Positions 471 through 55,769 of a stretch of 64,000 nt of DNA are shown piece by piece. The notes beneath the pieces are model-generated. The model saw only the letters and a list, made by a program, of their open reading frames with translations. It was not told where the DNA came from and did no database searches. The translations under genes and the position numbers were made by a program. The stretch is from Thermofilum sp. (GTDB lineage: Archaea > Thermoproteota > Thermoprotei > Thermofilales > Thermofilaceae): the NCBI GenBank assembly GCA_038741495.1, contig JAVYKX010000002.1, forward strand, positions 124,001 to 188,000, in the 5' to 3' direction. The first letter of the stretch is position 1. Each line of letters begins with the position of its first letter.

Positions 471-1829
471 ATGAGTGAGCCGGGAAGATCTCCCAAGAGG
501 CGTGTCATCATACTGGGCGCTGGGGGGAGGGATTTTCACAATTTTAATGTTCTTTTTCGCAGCAACCCTGAGTACGAGGTTGTAGCTTTTGCGGCCACTC
601 AGATCCCCAACATAGATAACCGGCTATATCCCCCGGAGCTTGCGGGCCCCCTGTACCCCAATGGTATACCGATTATCTCGCTGAGCAAAATGGAGGAGAT
701 TATCAAAAAGAATCTCGTAGATGAGGTTTTACTATCGTACAGCGATATAACGTGCGAGGAGCTTGCAGAGATTGTGAACAAAGTAGTCTCGATGGGGGCG
801 GACTTCGTCGTGCCCTCGCCGAGGAGAACTATGCTCAAGTCCAGTAAGCCTGTGATCGCGATTACTGCTTCGCGGACGGGGGCCGGGAAGAGCACCGTCT
901 CGCGTTACGTGGCACGGATCCTTAGAGAGCTAGGAGTGCGCTACGTGATCGTCAGGCATCCTATGCCTTACGGAGATCTCAGCAAGTCCGTGGTTCAAAG
1001 GTTTGCCAGCTACGAAGATGTGGATAAGTACAACTGTACGATTGAGGAGAGAGAAGAGTACGAGCCGCATATAGCTGAGGGTAGCGTAGTTTACGCTGGT
1101 GTTGATTACGAGAGAGTACTACGGGAAGCTGAGAGAGAAGGCGATGTGATCATTTGGGATGGAGGTAACAACGATGTACCGTTCTTCTGGCCTGACCTTC
1201 ACATCACTGTCGTGGATCCTACTAGACCTAAGGACGTTTTAACCTCTTTCCCTGGTGCCGTGAACGTAACGTCAGCAGATGTCATAGTGATCAACAAGGT
1301 TAATCTTGCTCCTCGCGAGCATGTAAAGCACGTTCTCCAGACAGTCAGGTCCGTGAACCCCCGAGCAGAGGTGATAGAGGCTGAGTCAGTACTGCGAGTA
1401 GACAAGCCCGAACTGGTGCGTGGTAAGAGAGTCGTTGTCGTAGAGGATGCTCCCACCGTTACACACGGCTCGCTAAGCCATGCAGCAGGCTATCAGGCAG
1501 CAATCGAGTATGGCGCAAGCGAGATAGTTGATCCAAGAGCTTACGCTGTTGGTAGCTTGAAAGAGGTTTACGATAAGTACCCATGGCTTGGGCGCGTTGT
1601 TCCGGCACTCGGCTACGGGGAGACGCAAATGAGAGATCTCGAGGAAACGCTGAACCGTGTTGATGCCCACACGATAATTCTCGGTACTCCCGCGGACATA
1701 TCCCGCGTACTGAAGCTCAACAAACCTGTAGTGAAGGTATTCTTCGAGCTGAGGGAGACGGAGGGCAAGAGGCTCCGCAAGATAATCGAAGAATTCGCTA
1801 AGCGCGCCCTAGCGGTTTACAGCAAGTGA
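471..1829 (+). CDS. COG2403-type P-loop GTPase, cyclic 2,3-diphosphoglycerate synthetase-like
   Basis: This 452-residue protein has an N-terminal Rossmann-like part (VIILGAGGRDFHNFN near residues 12-26) and a central P-loop, TASRTGAGKST, near residue 132. Between them is a region ending VVPSPRRTMLKSSKPVIAI. This is the layout of the COG2403 predicted GTPases, annotated by similarity to cyclic 2,3-diphosphoglycerate synthetase, which phosphorylates and cyclises 2,3-DPG in methanogens. Whether this organism makes cDPG is not shown by the sequence. The family name is sound; the reaction is inferred. Confidence 0.75.
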   Translation: MSEPGRSPKRRVIILGAGGRDFHNFNVLFRSNPEYEVVAFAATQIPNIDNRLYPPELAGPLYPNGIPIISLSKMEEIIKKNLVDEVLLSYSDITCEELAEIVNKVVSMGADFVVPSPRRTMLKSSKPVIAITASRTGAGKSTVSRYVARILRELGVRYVIVRHPMPYGDLSKSVVQRFASYEDVDKYNCTIEEREEYEPHIAEGSVVYAGVDYERVLREAEREGDVIIWDGGNNDVPFFWPDLHITVVDPTRPKDVLTSFPGAVNVTSADVIVINKVNLAPREHVKHVLQTVRSVNPRAEVIEAESVLRVDKPELVRGKRVVVVEDAPTVTHGSLSHAAGYQAAIEYGASEIVDPRAYAVGSLKEVYDKYPWLGRVVPALGYGETQMRDLEETLNRVDAHTIILGTPADISRVLKLNKPVVKVFFELRETEGKRLRKIIEEFAKRALAVYSK

Positions 1830-1891
1830 GCCCGAACCCCAGTTAGGTATAAGTTACCGCTTTTTGGGAAAGATCGGCGGAGTGTCGGGGT

Positions 1892-2962
1892 GTGCCTCAA
1901 GAGGGTAAACTGCTAGTACTCTGCGTCGACAGGGATAACGATATAGGCACGACGCTAGGTGTGCAAACCCCCATACTAGGAGAGGAGGCTTTGACGAGAG
2001 TAGCTATAGAGTTCGCGCTCCGAAGGCCTGAAGACTCGGATGCGAATGCCATCTTCGCGGCTCTTCAAACGCTTCGCGACTTACGGAGAATGGGTTACGC
2101 TGACCGCTGCGAAGTTGCTCTACTTGCCGGCACAGAGGAGGAGGGTGTTCAGGCCGACATGAAAATCCTGCAAGAGCTAGACGAAGTTCTGCGTAATGGA
2201 GAGTTCACGGGCGCGATACTCGTGTCGGATGGCCCCACGGACGAGGTCGTGGCCCCTCTGATACAGTCGAGAATTCCTCTCATCTCGATACGTAGGGTGG
2301 TCGTCCAGCAGTCAAGGGGGGTAGAAGAGACTTTTGTTCTTCTGGTGAATTACGTGAAGAAACTCTTCCTAGAGGAGAAGTACAGGAAGTACTCAATGGG
2401 GCTTACAGGGGCATTTCTAGCAATCTACACGATTCTCTCGGCTGTGCTACCCCAGTTTGCTTGGACTCTCGTTCTCGCTTCTCTCGGAGGCTTTATGTTC
2501 GTAAAGGGGTACGGGATTGATAAGAGGGTTGCCCAGATCTACCAATCAGGGTCTGTGAGATTTATCGCATTCGTGCTCGCGCTGCTAATCTCTGTACTCG
2601 GCTTTCTCCAAGGTTTTGCGAGAGTTCTACAGCTTCAGAGAATGGACGCAGGAGCTATAGCAGCTTTTGCGCTAGCACCCGTAGGAGGTCAGCTGATAGC
2701 AGTGGATTTATTCGTAATCGGTGCGACGCTGTTCCTCGTCGGAGGGATGCTGGAAGAGCTGATTGCGGGGAGAGTTTTGAGAATCTCGCAAGCGCTGTTC
2801 GTAACCGCTGTGCTTCTGTCCAGGCAAATAGTTGTCGAGATGGCTAAGTATCTTGCTGGAGGGGGTAGCATTCAGGGTGTTCTCACCTGGTCATTCGTAG
2901 AGTTGGCAGTGGTCGTTATCGCGGTATCAGTAATGTACATGGAAGCTGAGCGCTCTAAGTAG
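1892..2962 (+). CDS. DUF373 family membrane protein
   Basis: Starts at GTG 1892. The first 160 residues are soluble and begin LLVLCVDRDNDIGTTLGVQTP, the signature of the archaeal DUF373 family. From about residue 168 to the end there are several hydrophobic segments (for example FLAIYTILSAVLPQFAWTLV and VIAVSVMYMEAER), so the C-terminal half is membrane-embedded. The gene follows the COG2403 gene by about 60 bases, with a TATA-like ggtataag between them. It precedes the methylase by 8 bases and is probably co-transcribed with it. Function is unknown for the family. Confidence 0.85.
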   Translation: MPQEGKLLVLCVDRDNDIGTTLGVQTPILGEEALTRVAIEFALRRPEDSDANAIFAALQTLRDLRRMGYADRCEVALLAGTEEEGVQADMKILQELDEVLRNGEFTGAILVSDGPTDEVVAPLIQSRIPLISIRRVVVQQSRGVEETFVLLVNYVKKLFLEEKYRKYSMGLTGAFLAIYTILSAVLPQFAWTLVLASLGGFMFVKGYGIDKRVAQIYQSGSVRFIAFVLALLISVLGFLQGFARVLQLQRMDAGAIAAFALAPVGGQLIAVDLFVIGATLFLVGGMLEELIAGRVLRISQALFVTAVLLSRQIVVEMAKYLAGGGSIQGVLTWSFVELAVVVIAVSVMYMEAERSK

Positions 2963-2970
2963 AGAGCATC

Positions 2971-4053
2971 ATGGAGCGGTACTATCTTCTGCTAAGCCAG
3001 TGTGCAGGAAATTGTGGGACGGCCGAGGCTCTACATGTTTTGGGTAAAGTTTGTGGATTTCGAGTGGAAGTCGCCGGGCAGGGCGTAATTAGCATCGTAA
3101 GCAAGAACTCTGAGAATATAGTGAGATGTTCATCCAAACTCGTGTGCGCACGATGCATCGTAAAGGAGGTTTATCGTGCTAGTCTGAGTGAGGGATGGGA
3201 CATAGCTCTGGGGGCCGCCGCGGAGGTTCTGAGCAGAGAGTTAGCTATGCGCGCATCTAAGGAACGGGTCGGAGTGGACGTGGAGGTGAGCGATGTCGCG
3301 CTTAGGCTTAGTGCCGCTGAGAGAGCACTAGTGGCGGAGAAGCTGATCAGCATGCTGCGTGCTCGGGATAACCGACTAGTAACGCTGAGAAGCACACCCG
3401 ACTTTCACATATGGGTTGGTATTCTAAGCGACTACCTGTCTTTTGGAGTAATCCTGCAAAAGTTCAGAGGAGATCGGTATAGAAGTAGAGAGCCTCACAG
3501 GAGAGTCTACAGAAGACCTTTTGCCCTGGTTCCTCAAGTAGCGCGCCTCATTCTTAATTTCTCGCTTAATCCCTTGCACGGCCCCTTCCTCGATGCATTC
3601 TGCGGAACGGGTGCAACGCTGATCGAAGCAGCGCTCGAGGGGTTCTACGGGGTTGGGGTCGACCTCGACTACGAGAACATTAGAGGCGCGCGCCGCAATT
3701 CTCTACAGCACGGTGTTTACCACCTTATCGATCTAATCATTAGTGATGCCGCGCACCTCCCCTTTAGGAGAGATGTGTTTGCGCTAGCAGCCTTTGACCC
3801 TCCTTACGGTCGGGCTGCATCGTGTAAGGGAAAGCAGCCCCACCTGCTGCTCACAGAAGCACTGGAGCGGGTACTGGCTTCTCTAAAGCCGGGGGCTCGC
3901 GCGGCTTTCCTCTCTCCCGGGAGCGAGGAGTACTCAGCCGTCGCCGAGTCCGCTGAAAGGGTATGCTCGATCTACGTTCACTCCTCTCTCGTGAGAGTCC
4001 TGTGGGTGATAGAGAAGAGCTTTGCGAAAAACCAGCAGGCTGAACTTCTATGA
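2971..4053 (+). CDS. tRNA G10-type N2-methyltransferase (Trm11/TrmG10 family)
   Basis: The C-terminal half holds a SAM-binding Rossmann core (LDAFCGTGATLIEAAL near residue 208, then GVGVDLDYENI) and the catalytic motif DPPYG near residue 270. DPPY is typical of N2-guanine and N6-adenine methylases. The N-terminal part resembles a THUMP-bearing region, though I see it less clearly. Archaeal TrmG10 makes m2G or m2,2G at tRNA position 10, and this is the likeliest role. The ATG of RNase Z overlaps its stop (ATGA at 4050-4053), so the two tRNA-processing genes are translationally coupled. Confidence 0.8.
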   Translation: MERYYLLLSQCAGNCGTAEALHVLGKVCGFRVEVAGQGVISIVSKNSENIVRCSSKLVCARCIVKEVYRASLSEGWDIALGAAAEVLSRELAMRASKERVGVDVEVSDVALRLSAAERALVAEKLISMLRARDNRLVTLRSTPDFHIWVGILSDYLSFGVILQKFRGDRYRSREPHRRVYRRPFALVPQVARLILNFSLNPLHGPFLDAFCGTGATLIEAALEGFYGVGVDLDYENIRGARRNSLQHGVYHLIDLIISDAAHLPFRRDVFALAAFDPPYGRAASCKGKQPHLLLTEALERVLASLKPGARAAFLSPGSEEYSAVAESAERVCSIYVHSSLVRVLWVIEKSFAKNQQAELL

Positions 4054-10910: not shown

Positions 10911-11021
<111 letters not shown>

Positions 11022-12205: not shown

Positions 12206-12364
12206 GCGCCCCGGCGACGGGGCGCTGAAAAGAGAGGGTTAGGCCACCGCCGGAGAGGCGGACAGCCGACCCCATGACCCGCCCCGGCCATCCCAAGCGG
12301 AAGCCGCGGGGCGGGCCCCAGAGGCCCGCAACGGCCGAAGGGGGAGATGAACACCGGCGCGGGA
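12206..12364 (+). mobile_element. TnpB-type right end / candidate guide-RNA scaffold, copy A
   Basis: Begins with the hairpin GCGCCCC-ggcgac-GGGGCGC and continues through ATGACCCGCCCCGG, where the tnpB stop overlaps in the intact copy. A long stem CCCGCCCCG/CGGGGCGGG is closed over an unrelated loop, and the copy ends gaacaccggcgcggga. The same order occurs at 25765-25932. The stem is kept while the loop differs from the intact copy, which suggests selection for RNA structure. The promoter for the downstream KaiC-like gene starts about 15 bases after it. Confidence 0.75.
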
Positions 12365-12378
12365 CAGCACTGAGGGCA

Positions 12379-23130: not shown

Positions 23131-23409
23131 TCATATTTCGCTCTTTGACCGCAAGTACAAGCCCAGCGCTAGAATCGCCACAAGCGCAACCACACCGATG
23201 ATCAGCGAGAGCTCCGAAGGTACCGAATGCACGCTCTCGATCTCCAGCATAGAGCCCACAAGCTGGAAAAAGAATCCTAGCGCGCCAAGGAGGCTGAAAC
23301 CTGCTAAGATTACCTTTAGAGAGAGTTTGTACTCCTCGGCCGTTGGCTTCGTAGCCAGCTTCACAACTCTTATTATATCCTCGAGCAGTCTCGGCATGTC
23401 CAGCCCCAT
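23131..23409 (-). CDS. secE: preprotein translocase subunit SecE/Sec61-gamma
   Basis: 92 residues. An amphipathic N-terminus (LLEDIIRVVKLATKPTAEEY) is followed by hydrophobic segments near residues 28-50 and 66-86. The second segment makes it longer than the usual single-span SecE. ATG at 23409 or 23397. It is the membrane clamp of the SecY channel. Its upstream region was replaced by the TnpB island: the direct repeat gtatcagct begins on the next base before the start codon. Confidence 0.9.
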   Translation of the reverse strand: MGLDMPRLLEDIIRVVKLATKPTAEEYKLSLKVILAGFSLLGALGFFFQLVGSMLEIESVHSVPSELSLIIGVVALVAILALGLYLRSKSEI

Positions 23410-23419
23410 GTATCAGCTA

Positions 23420-23892: not shown

Positions 23893-24243
23893 TCAGCGGG
23901 GTAGGGCTTCCTCTAGTACCTGCTTAACCTTTTTCTCGAGAAGCTTCCCCGCGTGAAGGAAGGTCGCGCCCTCCTCTGTGACAACCCTCACGTCTTCCGG
24001 CGGGATAATGTTCCCAGCCCTCAGCGCCACCACCGCCTCCTCGGCGCTCACGCTCCTCCTGAACCTGGCGGTGAAGAGCCTCGAGGGAGCGTACCCGACC
24101 CTCACCCACGCTACATCACCCCTCAGCACCACCGACAGGCTGTAGAACATCAGAGTATCCCAAACCTTGCTGCCCGCACCCTCCAAGCCCTCCCTCACTA
24201 CAGCGATTAGCGAGCTGAAGTGCTCCAGCAGGCAGAGAAGCAC
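23893..24243 (-). CDS. uncharacterised island protein
   Basis: 116 residues if started at GTG 24243. A longer frame reaches 24669 but is antisense to tnpB and unlikely. The sequence has a helix (LLCLLEHFSSLIAVVREG), strands VWDTLMFYSLSVVLRGDVAW and VRVGYAPSRLFTARF, then a charged C-terminal helix EKKVKQVLEEALPR. No family recognised. Just before its start lies a copy of the LTLYTAFAA tail seen in the bicistrons, so this may be a related cassette. It is divergent from tnpB. Confidence 0.45.
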   Translation of the reverse strand: MLLCLLEHFSSLIAVVREGLEGAGSKVWDTLMFYSLSVVLRGDVAWVRVGYAPSRLFTARFRRSVSAEEAVVALRAGNIIPPEDVRVVTEEGATFLHAGKLLEKKVKQVLEEALPR

Positions 24244-24302
24244 GCTGCAAAGGCTGTGTAGAGGGTGAGCCAGCCTCCCCTCAAGCGCCGGCACCACTCT
24301 CC

Positions 24303-24319: not shown

Positions 24320-24333
24320 CGTCCCTTGCGGCC

Positions 24334-24369: not shown

Positions 24370-25827
24370 ATGGGGGCCAGCACGGCGAGGGGAGCCCCCG
24401 AGAAGAGCGAGGCCCCTGGGGAGGGCTTCAGGGTCTTCAGGGTGGAGTTGAACAGGAGAGTGAGGGGAGAGCTCGCGAAGCTCCACCAGCGCCTCGTACA
24501 GAGGGATCCTTCGCTGCCGAAGAACGCGTTCCGCTACCACGAGAGCTGGGAAAACGAGGATGCGAACATGCGGGAGATGCGGGAGCAGGCGGGGAAGCGA
24601 TCCCCGCCGAAGCGTAGAGCGGCGTACTACCTGCTGGCTAAGGTCGTCAAGGATGGAAAGAGGATCCACGGCAGCAAAGGTGCTTCAGTAATCGTCGACC
24701 TCGGCAGGAGCGAGCTGCGGATCCCCTGCGCTGGGATCCGGATCCCCCTGAAGCCAGGGCTGGTCAAGGCGCTGGAGGGGGAGCTCCGGCTCGCTCCTAA
24801 GCCGGAGTTCGCCGTCCAGCTGACGTGCCGGGGCAGGCTGCGCATCGTCGCTTTCAGGAGCCCGCCGAAGTGGTGGCTCTACAGGGAGGAGTGCGCGGAC
24901 TTCGACGCGGTCCGGCTCGGGCCGCCCGTCAGGGTGGTGGGGGTGGACGTGAACAGCGTGTACGGCATTGCCGCCGTGGTCTTCGACCTCACCGAGGGCG
25001 GCGTGAGGGTGCCGAAGTCTCCCTTCCGCCTGCAGCCGCCCAACGACGCCCTCTACCTGGCGGAGGCGAGCGTGCTCCGGAAGATCGCCCAGGGCCTGCC
25101 GCCGGAACCGCCGGACAACGCCACGGAGGAGGAGCTCCAGCTCTGGCAGTGGGCCCTGGAGAGGGTGAAGCGGCTATCCTCCAGGGTTGGGGCGCTGACC
25201 ACTGAGAGGGCTGACAGGCTCCGCTGCCAGCTGGAGCGGGCGGCGAGGCTGGCGAGGAGGCGGTGGGCCCGGAAGCTGCTGGGGGAGCTGAGGCAGCTCA
25301 TCCGCGGGGCGAACGGCAGGGCAGTAATCGCTATCGACGCCCCCGACCCTGAGAGCCTCAGGAACAGCAAGCTGCAGAAGACCTACCTGCACGTGACGAA
25401 ACACATCAAGAACCTTTGCCGGTACGAGGGGGCGCTCTACCGGAGGGTGAGGGCTTCCGGCAGGGCGTGCCCCCTCTGCGGCAGGTGGTGCGAGGAGGTC
25501 GCTCACCGCTACTACAAGTGCAGCCACTGTAGCATTGTCTTCGACAGGGATTACGGTGGAGCTTTCAACGCAGCCCTCGAAGCCCTACCACCGACGCTCG
25601 CCGACACGCTGAAGGGGTGGCTCAAAGCCCACCCCAAAGCGCTCGCAAGGAACTACAACAACCCTGCAGGCCCCGCTTCCCGGGACCCCCGCCCGGACGT
25701 CGAGCCCGTTCGGGGGGCGCTCCCGGGGGGCCGCGTGCGCGACGAGGGGGAGAGCAGCCGGGAGGCGCTCCGGCGACGGGGCGCTGAAAGGCGCGAGCAG
25801 GCCGCCCTTAAGCGGCCGCCCCCATGA
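24370..25827 (+). CDS. tnpB: TnpB-family RNA-guided nuclease
   Basis: I choose ATG 24370 (485 residues) because a TATA box lies 26-36 bases upstream; a GTG at 24265 falls inside repeat DNA. The RuvC-I motif is VVGVDVNSVYG with Asp193. RuvC-II is VIAIDAPDPES with Asp323 where most TnpBs have Glu. A zinc finger uses C367, C370, C384 and C387. RuvC-III is DRDYGGAFNAAL (Asp392/394). Family members cut DNA using a guide RNA made from the element's right end, and here the stop codon lies within that right end. No TnpA or serine recombinase is in the window. The Glu-to-Asp change may lower activity. Confidence 0.85.
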   Translation: MGASTARGAPEKSEAPGEGFRVFRVELNRRVRGELAKLHQRLVQRDPSLPKNAFRYHESWENEDANMREMREQAGKRSPPKRRAAYYLLAKVVKDGKRIHGSKGASVIVDLGRSELRIPCAGIRIPLKPGLVKALEGELRLAPKPEFAVQLTCRGRLRIVAFRSPPKWWLYREECADFDAVRLGPPVRVVGVDVNSVYGIAAVVFDLTEGGVRVPKSPFRLQPPNDALYLAEASVLRKIAQGLPPEPPDNATEEELQLWQWALERVKRLSSRVGALTTERADRLRCQLERAARLARRRWARKLLGELRQLIRGANGRAVIAIDAPDPESLRNSKLQKTYLHVTKHIKNLCRYEGALYRRVRASGRACPLCGRWCEEVAHRYYKCSHCSIVFDRDYGGAFNAALEALPPTLADTLKGWLKAHPKALARNYNNPAGPASRDPRPDVEPVRGALPGGRVRDEGESSREALRRRGAERREQAALKRPPP

Positions 25828-25932
25828 CCCGCCCCGGTCGTCCACGGCCTCGGCTCTGCTCGGGGCTGGGGAGGCCGAGGGGCGGGCCTGGAGGCTTAAG
25901 CCCGTGAAGGGGGATGAGCACCGGCGCGGAAC
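25765..25932 (+). ncRNA. candidate guide RNA (reRNA/omega-RNA) and right end of tnpB, copy B
   Basis: It begins with GCGCTCC-ggcgac-GGGGCGC, passes the tnpB stop at ATGACCCGCCCCGG, forms the stem CCCGCCCC/GGGGCGGG with an inner CCTCGG/CCGAGG, and ends CACCGGCGCGGAAC at 25932. In TnpB systems the RNA overlaps the 3' end of the gene and the guide is read from the DNA just beyond. The presumptive guide would begin gtatcagctggttggc, whose first nine bases also occur at the left edge of the island. Expression is not shown. Confidence 0.6.
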
Positions 25933-25941
25933 GTATCAGCT

Positions 25942-28462: not shown

Positions 28463-28723
28463 CTACCTCACAACTAGAACCTCAGCCTCAGCTAGCTCTC
28501 TAATGTAGCTGTCTTCAACTTCCTCAACGTTAACAGGTTCTACTCTGCTAACCTTGATATGCCTCCTCGTCAACTTGTGCCTCCCACCTAAGACGCTGTA
28601 GAGCCTGTCCAGAACCTCCCTTTCGCTAAGACCCCGAAGGTATAAGGTGAACTTCCTCGTTTCTCCGTTTCGCAACACCATCAGCCCCTCCACCTTATAC
28701 GTGGCAGGCACTCTGGTGCTCAT
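28463..28723 (-). CDS. rpl18a: ribosomal protein L18a/LX
   Basis: 86 residues: TYKVEGLMVLRNGETRKFTL followed by RHKLTRRHIKVSRVEPVNVE, the archaeal LX pattern. It is the first gene of the L18a-pfdA-ftsY cluster. In many archaea L31e, L39e and aIF6 lie upstream. Here the upstream DNA is a GC-rich insertion, although a TATA-like agatttaacc remains about 30 bases before the ATG. Confidence 0.92.
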   Translation of the reverse strand: MSTRVPATYKVEGLMVLRNGETRKFTLYLRGLSEREVLDRLYSVLGGRHKLTRRHIKVSRVEPVNVEEVEDSYIRELAEAEVLVVR

Positions 28724-28770
28724 ATCTCTCTAGCAGCCACACCCATTACTGGTTAAATCTATTACTGGTG

Positions 28771-28906
28771 ATAGGGGGTGAGCGCCCCCTCGAGGGCCTT
28801 GTTGAGCTCCTCGTCGAAGCTCAGCCCCTCCCGCCTCGCCAGCTCCCCCAGCCTCACCCTCAGCTCCCTCATACCCCCGCTGCTCGCGAGCCCCTCCATG
28901 CCTTCA
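28771..28906 (-). CDS. small gene 2 of the repeated bicistron, copy 2
   Basis: MEGLASSGGMRELRVRLGEL then an Arg/Glu-rich helix ending EELNKALEGALTPYHQ, about 45 residues from the ATG near 28901. Its start follows closely the TGA of a frame ending GGWLTVYAAFATG. It is homologous to the gene at 23484-23696 in the first 20 residues but diverges afterwards. The last codons fall in the left direct repeat. Helical and charged; function unknown. Confidence 0.4.
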
Positions 28907-28937
28907 CCCCGTGGCGAAAGCCGCGTACACGGTGAGC

Positions 28938-29033
28938 CACCCGCCCCGGTCGTCCACGGCCAAGAGCCGGGGAGGCCGCGGGGCGGGCCCCGAGGCCCAA
29001 GCCGGTGAAGGGAGATGAGCACCGGCGCGGAAC
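28938..29033 (+). ncRNA. solo right end / candidate guide-RNA scaffold, copy C
   Basis: Contains acccgccccggtcgtccacg, nearly identical to copy B, the closing strand ggggcgggcc, and the terminus gagcaccggcgcggaac. The inner loop is shorter than in B but the outer stem is intact. No TnpB coding remains here, so any RNA would have to use the nuclease made at 24370. The presumptive guide starts attactggtgctgc, and its first ten bases are repeated at the left edge of this insertion. Confidence 0.55.
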
Positions 29034-29105
29034 ATTACTGGTGCTGCTTCTGCCGGAACACAGGCTGCATCAAATTCAAAAACCCCTCCCCCCAAAGCAC
29101 TTGAG

Positions 29106-29197
29106 GGGCCGGTCGTCTAGTGGGAGGATGCCGCCTTCGCAAGGTTCGCTCCCGAGAGCGGCGGTGGTCCCGGGTTCGAATCCCGGCCGGTCCACCA
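29106..29197 (+). tRNA. tRNA-Ala (CGC) with canonical 37/38 intron
   Basis: Acceptor GGGCCGG/CCGGTCC has the G3-U70 pair that defines alanine tRNAs. Anticodon stem CCGCC/GGCGG encloses TTCGCA followed by a 17-base excess, so the anticodon is CGC (29138-29140) with an intron after position 37. T arm CCGGG-TTCGAAT-CCCGG, A73 and encoded CCA. Mature length would be 75. Confidence 0.9.
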
Positions 29198-55660: not shown

Positions 55661-55769
55661 GGGCCCGTAGCGCAGTCAGGAAGCGCGGTGACCTTTGGAG
55701 AGGCCGCAAGCCTTCGGATCCGCAGAGGAAAGCCACAGGTCCCGGGTTCAAGTCCCGGCGGGCCCGCCA
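55661..55769 (+). tRNA. tRNA-Arg (TCG) with two introns
   Basis: Acceptor GGGCCCG/CGGGCCC, G73, CCA, D arm GCGC-AGTCAGGAA-GCGC. The anticodon stem is completed only if 19 bases (55091+600 to 55709, that is 55691-55709) are removed between positions 29 and 30, giving GTG+GC pairing with GCCAC. The loop CTTCGG then gives anticodon TCG. A second 13-base excess (55118+600 to 55730, that is 55718-55730) lies at 37/38. The total surplus of 32 equals the difference between 109 and 77. Confidence 0.85.

Follow-up and report, generated by a model that had tools for sequence, protein, structure and literature searches.

This locus raises the question of how the right end of a TnpB element, with no nuclease gene beside it, came to lie between a ribosomal protein gene and a tRNA gene, and whether the right end could still serve as a guide. 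It lies in the window, the whole stretch of 64 kb that was analyzed (positions 124001–188000 of contig C2), which belongs to a Thermofilum-type genome of 1.6 Mb (G000; the assembly is 96% complete). Coordinates given without a contig name are those of the window.

Boundaries and anatomy of the element

The element occupies positions 28771–29033 (263 bp, plus strand), and both of its edges are edges of homology to other genomic copies as well as edges of direct repeats. The preliminary description reported a 10 bp repeat at the terminus (29034) that recurs at 28761, and we found both copies to be exact: ATTACTGGTG occurs twice in the 64 kb window (0.03 occurrences expected), at 28761–28770 and at 29034–29043. 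The right copy, read from the sequence, abuts 29033, which is the last base of a right end common to about 18 genomic copies. The left copy abuts 28771/28772, where an independent homology to the copies at C2:465018 and C2:327574 starts. The ATTACTGGTG pair was not equaled in any of 300 shuffles that were scored for direct repeats at the edges of homology. The pair is most simply interpreted as a 10 bp target duplication, with the left copy as the presumed duplicated site, and we take target duplications in this family to be real because empty alleles in sister species show them (see below).

The insertion site lies between rpl18a/L20a (LX) (28463–28723, minus strand; Pfam PF01775) on the left and tRNA-Ala(CGC) (29106–29197, plus strand; ARAGORN) on the right. 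At the syntenic rpl18a/tRNA-Ala locus of a congener (G002), about 146 bp separate the two genes and there is no element, but the spacer is too diverged for the repeat to be counted. With its flanks joined and a single ATTACTGGTG, the spacer in G000 would read CACCCATTACTGGTTAAATCTATTACTGGTGCTGCTTCTG. The tRNA calls of the two programs differ: the tRNA-Ala at 29106 is found by ARAGORN and missed by Rfam, and Rfam finds tRNAs at 10914–11021 (minus strand) and 55661–55766 (plus strand) that ARAGORN misses, probably because of introns.

A near copy of the repeat, previously placed at 28744, does exist, but it (ATTACTGGT) lies one base away from that position, at 28745–28753. It adjoins TTAAAT (28753–28758), which is probably the TATA box of rpl18a, intact beside the insertion, and the syntenic G002 locus has attaaatt at a similar place; most likely, the near copy belongs to the native flank. 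We considered it as the true target, as it is preceded by CCC, and disfavored it because it is next to the probable rpl18a TATA box.

Within the element, two BLAST matches to other copies meet. The left part (28772–28947, plus strand, 176 bp) is homologous to DNA that lies upstream of tnpB in fuller copies, with identities of 82% to C2:465018 and 78% to C2:327574. It begins about 109 nt inside the left end that these two copies share, and the left end is therefore 5′-truncated. The right part (28939–29033, plus strand, 95 bp) is the right end, an omegaRNA-like structured core with the stem CCCGCCCCGG..CCGCGGGGCGGG and the conserved 3′ end GATGAGCACCGGCGCGGAAC; it is 92% identical to the right end of the C1:471907 element and 79% identical to that of the TnpB element in the window. 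Its terminal letters are GGCGCGGAAC, and the sequence at the guide position that follows is ATTACTGGTGCTGCTTCTG. The two matches (element positions 2–177 and 169–263) overlap by the 9 bp ACCCGCCCC (28939–28947, plus strand) at the junction of the two parts, so that the element has the form of an internal deletion made through microhomology. The loss of tnpB and its promoter through this microhomology is shown at the level of sequence. A TATA-like ATAAATA near 24333, seen by eye upstream of the parent tnpB, is removed in the 263 bp copy.

The preliminary description was right that no tnpB lies within the element, but its small internal bicistron is not supported: the minus-strand ORF has no family match and is frame-shifted among copies. 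We rejected a protein-coding role for this ORF (28762–29022), a relic within the left part, as it has no Pfam or NCBIfam match and takes its stop codon from the flank.

Relatives of the element in the same genome

The genome contains about 18 right ends, which end in GGCGCGG(AAC) and each have a different flank, and six tnpB copies, of which five are open and one contains stops. About 12 of the 18 right ends have no adjacent tnpB. The idea of a non-autonomous, guide-carrying element thus stands insofar as the 263 bp copy lacks tnpB and has an omegaRNA-type right end, but it is not a single notable case, since about two-thirds of the right ends in the genome are without an adjacent tnpB. A second right end of this kind in the window, recognized by homology, lies at 12277–12365 (plus strand), and no flanking direct repeat was found around it.

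The nearest tnpB-bearing copy encodes a TnpB at 24370–25824 (plus strand) with a D193/D323/D394 triad and a zinc ribbon, which is a possible partner in trans. Its right end, identified by homology, is at 25827–25932 (plus strand), and a 9 bp repeat, GTATCAGCT, flanks the element at 23410–23418 and 25933–25941. A small minus-strand ORF ends at 23409, and the left edge of this element falls immediately upstream of the start codon of that ORF; by position the ORF is SecE-like, and its neighbor is a NusG-like ORF. The minus-strand ORF region at 23893–24275 accompanies several tnpB-less right ends of about 470–650 bp (L084, L088, and L089), in the way that cargo or a divergent accessory gene might.

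Three other right ends in G000 have comparable repeats that start two bases or fewer from the right end: the TnpB element in the window (the GTATCAGCT pair at 23410 and 25933), the right end at C2:81 kb (TCATGAGCGAT), and the right end at C1:38 kb (the 11 bp AAAGCTTCGGC, whose left copy lies outside the homology edge by about 210 bp). At C2:465 kb there is a weaker repeat of 8 bp. Clear direct repeats are present at only 4–5 of the approximately 18 right ends, and a shuffle test of the remaining right ends in G000 found no approximate direct repeats above chance. The clear left-end motif of the sister species, TAGCAATGCTA, is not present in the G000 copies. We also considered CCTATAGG as a left-end palindrome for the whole genome and rejected it, because it is common only to the C2:465 kb and C2:327 kb copies. 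On contig C3, positions 1764–3895 of locus L078 hold right ends that are nearly identical, inverted, and adjoined by the same flank, near the contig start; they are either a real inverted duplication or an assembly effect.

The match of the TnpB proteins to PF07282 is above the cut-off in the C4 paralogue and below it in the window copy. An AlphaFold2 model of the TnpB (mean pLDDT 75) has confident PDB matches to Cas12 proteins, TnpB, and Fanzor. Together, these matches place the protein, which has a zinc ribbon, among the diverged members of the Cas12/TnpB fold. Its RuvC triad, D193-D323-D394, stands in place of the canonical D-E-D; at the RuvC-II position, all six G000 copies and, by eye, the ORFs of the sister species have D, and the corresponding residue of ISDra2 TnpB is E278 (PMC10097598). 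The fold of the right end is a long stem in which most changes among copies are consistent and a few are compensatory, a structure that fits an omegaRNA; covariation within G000 is modest. As in IS1341-type elements, the last base of the conserved right end abuts a variable sequence at the guide position. No relatives of the window TnpB were found among named genome contigs, and a pattern search with the right end gave a match in Thermofilum sp. NZ13 (G006), the other matches being scattered bacteria in about the number expected by chance.

Filled and empty alleles in sister species

Two closely related species, G001 and Thermofilum sp. NZ13, are relatives of the window's genome and contain 13 and 16 tnpB matches and 18 and 34 right ends, respectively. 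Because their flanks are mostly about 92%–99% identical, most right flanks can be located in the other genome, and filled and empty alleles can be compared.

The right junction was exact in these comparisons. In the empty alleles, C preceded the right junction at 23 of 30 sites, and YYC formed the final three bases at 20 of 30 sites (binomial p ~2e-16). As in IS1341-type elements, a TAM-like motif thus directly precedes the guide match at these sites; because the last two bases of the right end are the same as those of the target at 16 of the 30 sites, the motif could be read as a TAM or as a microhomology, or as both at once.

The left junction, in contrast, was variable, and consisted of a target duplication, a clean join, or a target deletion. 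Target duplications of the 10–11 bp class were found at L140 (ATCGTTGAGGT, 11 bp, exact), L126 (CGGCTACTTC), and L128 (CTTATATGCA), whereas IS1341-type elements are expected to insert without duplicating the target. Two tnpB-less inserts, L237 (2290 bp) and L259 (1060 bp), have target duplications of 11 and 8 bp, respectively; the duplication is 4 bp at L245 and a degenerate 15 bp at L143, and the left joins of L136 and L251 are near-clean. In other alleles, the target appears to have lost between about 20 and about 600 bp; the filled alleles L123, L122, L133, L142, L255, and L239 are without about 300–600 bp of the sister-species target to the left of the element, and their right junctions are exact. 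The left ends of the inserts fall into two classes: those that begin with the canonical TAGCAATGCTA, sometimes behind a short filler, and those that begin inside the element (L140, L251, L254, L255, L134, L142, and L252). At L140, a truncated left end occurs together with an exact 11 bp duplication, and truncation therefore accompanied insertion at this site. The 263 bp element has the same anatomy as L140 (a truncated left end, an exact right end, and a short duplication, here of 10 bp), and the filled allele L254 (267 bp) is of its size class. The long copies L140, L143, and L136 of G006 contain a small winged-helix-like ORF (about 115–125 aa) upstream of tnpB.

Looking for further copies and empty sites, as the preliminary description had proposed, thus yielded the approximately 18 right ends of G000, the filled/empty pairs of G001 and G006, and the G002 locus without the element. 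The sister-species alleles show that the family inserts in a right-end-anchored manner, with an exact right end after YYC and a ragged left junction.

Origin of the short copy and its possible role as a guide

The feature is probably a tnpB-less, non-autonomous member of a multicopy TnpB-omegaRNA family of Thermofilum-type archaea. We infer that the 263 bp copy went in as a short unit: its insertion between the rpl18a and tRNA-Ala genes would have duplicated 10 bp of the target, with the left side of the copy truncated and its interior, including tnpB, lost at the 9 bp microhomology either before or after insertion. By analogy with the sister species, the structured right end would have been joined exactly 3′ of YYC and the left junction closed raggedly; a caveat is that the site of the 263 bp element itself reads TCT before the repeat.

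Insertion of a longer TnpB element with the 10 bp duplication, followed by an interior deletion that left 263 bp, is a history that we regard as possible but do not favor. The microhomology at the inner junction is what such a deletion would leave, and repeat-mediated core deletions are documented in IS605-type elements of Haloquadratum (PMC3119063). However, decay of this kind leaves unexplained that the repeat exactly abuts the left edge, 109 nt within the left end of C2:465018 and C2:327574, and it fits that edge only if the insertion was already 5′-truncated, as at L140.

The preferred history as a short unit is compatible with a further reading that can hold on top of it, namely that the retained right end could, as a conjecture, be a guide scaffold for TnpB made elsewhere. 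If the right end were transcribed through, the guide would be expected at 29034–29053 (plus strand), by analogy with TnpB omegaRNAs, in which the guide is directly 3′ of the right end. The 263 bp element keeps the complete right-end stem and the exact terminus, four closely related tnpB copies are intact in G000, and about 12 other right ends in the genome also have no tnpB next to them. On the other hand, the tnpB promoter is deleted from the element, a part of the omegaRNA that possibly lies in the 3′ end of tnpB is missing, the putative nuclease has D instead of E in RuvC-II, and the trans-acting role is predicted from sequence. We therefore think it unlikely that a transcript of the solo right end is made, processed, and taken up by TnpB from another copy; its proposed consequence, in which the empty site would be cut and the element kept or copied back as a guide-only parasite of the TnpB system, seems to us similarly improbable. 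The 10 nt match of the guide seed to the element's own left flank, which the preliminary description had noted, is real but makes a poor target: it is preceded by TCT rather than YYC and then runs into element sequence. ISDra2 TnpB needs about 12 TAM-proximal pairs (PMC10097598), and self-cleavage at the left flank is therefore unlikely. The guide-position 20-mer has three exact matches in IMG/VR viral contigs (L232, L233, and L234), slightly more than the random expectation, which we do not take as targets; a 17-mer from the right end has 17 viral-contig matches.

Canonical IS200/IS605 or IS607 mobilization by TnpA acting in trans, the common assumption for TnpB-only elements, is very unlikely here. 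Neither a Y1 transposase (PF01797) nor a serine recombinase (PF00239), one of which an autonomous IS200/IS605 or IS607 element would carry as TnpA, was found in G000 with Pfam models, although the controls were detected; a caveat is that the assembly searched is 96% complete. Moreover, IS605-type (PMC3119063) and IS607 (PMC6188088) elements make no target duplication, whereas duplications and target deletions are found here. It is hardly credible that the apparent duplication predated the insertion as part of a native tandem motif, ATTACTGGT(G), at the rpl18a promoter, because, despite the near copy 16 bp leftward at 28745, both repeats abut homology edges exactly, none of the 300 shuffles was as good, and the same pattern is seen at other right ends and is proven in the sister-species alleles.

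LINE insertions have an exact 3′ end, 5′ truncations, filler, and variable target duplications and deletions. The Thermofilum elements are alike in pattern only: there is no poly(A), and no reverse transcriptase (RVT_1, Pfam), which a non-LTR retroelement would need in cis or in trans, was found in G000, G001, G006, or G014. Retrotransposition was rejected because no reverse transcriptase was found, although the insertion pattern fits. Guide scaffolds without an adjacent nuclease gene are also familiar as the stand-alone omegaRNAs reported for IscB and TnpB systems; the 263 bp element is likewise a putative scaffold of this kind.

Among known elements, the closest in form are the PATEs and the terminal-only IS605/IS1341 derivatives of Haloquadratum, which are tnpB-less, very short, and numerous, and some of which were formed by repeat-mediated core deletion (PMC3119063). 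PATEs have near-terminal palindromes and no target duplication (PMC3119063), whereas the Thermofilum family has an exact right end, a variable or truncated left end, and duplications of 8–11 bp or deletions; the 263 bp element is short and without a nuclease ORF, but has a 10 bp duplication and no left palindrome. The family also resembles the IS1341-type solo tnpB elements of Sulfolobus islandicus (PMC10640517) and of bacteria (PMC9956272), which have tnpB and a right-end scaffold without tnpA and a target-adjacent motif. It differs from them in the RuvC-II D and, for the 263 bp copy, in the absence of tnpB; furthermore, in Sulfolobus the TAMs (TTTAA/TTTAT) adjoin a left end that is conserved (PMC10640517), whereas the Thermofilum motif is YYC before the right junction in empty alleles.

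Both tnpB-less derivatives and tnpB-only IS1341 elements are thus already known, and it is the insertion pattern of the family that deserves attention. In Haloquadratum, strain-specific insertions are seen although the tnpA genes are mostly broken, which is hard to reconcile (PMC3119063); the autonomy of IS1341 has been stated to be unclear (PMC9956272), and the mobility of tnpB-only IS1341 elements is debated (PMC9956272, PMC3119063). The G001/G006 allele pairs make it possible to test how TnpB-only (IS1341-type) elements can be mobile in the absence of TnpA, a question that is still open, and the insertion signature of these pairs (an exact end at YYC, 5′ truncation, and target duplications or deletions) is not described in the cited IS605 and IS607 papers. 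We tentatively propose, as a mechanism that is still doubtful, that Thermofilum TnpB-only elements spread independently of TnpA, anchored by the right end after YYC and closed at the left by ragged end-joining; any right-end fragment, 263 bp tnpB-less copies included, would then be mobile with a guide against its own empty site, and the D-D-D TnpB may be part of the insertion machinery. From copies without tnpB, such as the 263 bp element, it can be seen how small a part of the element is found at an insertion.
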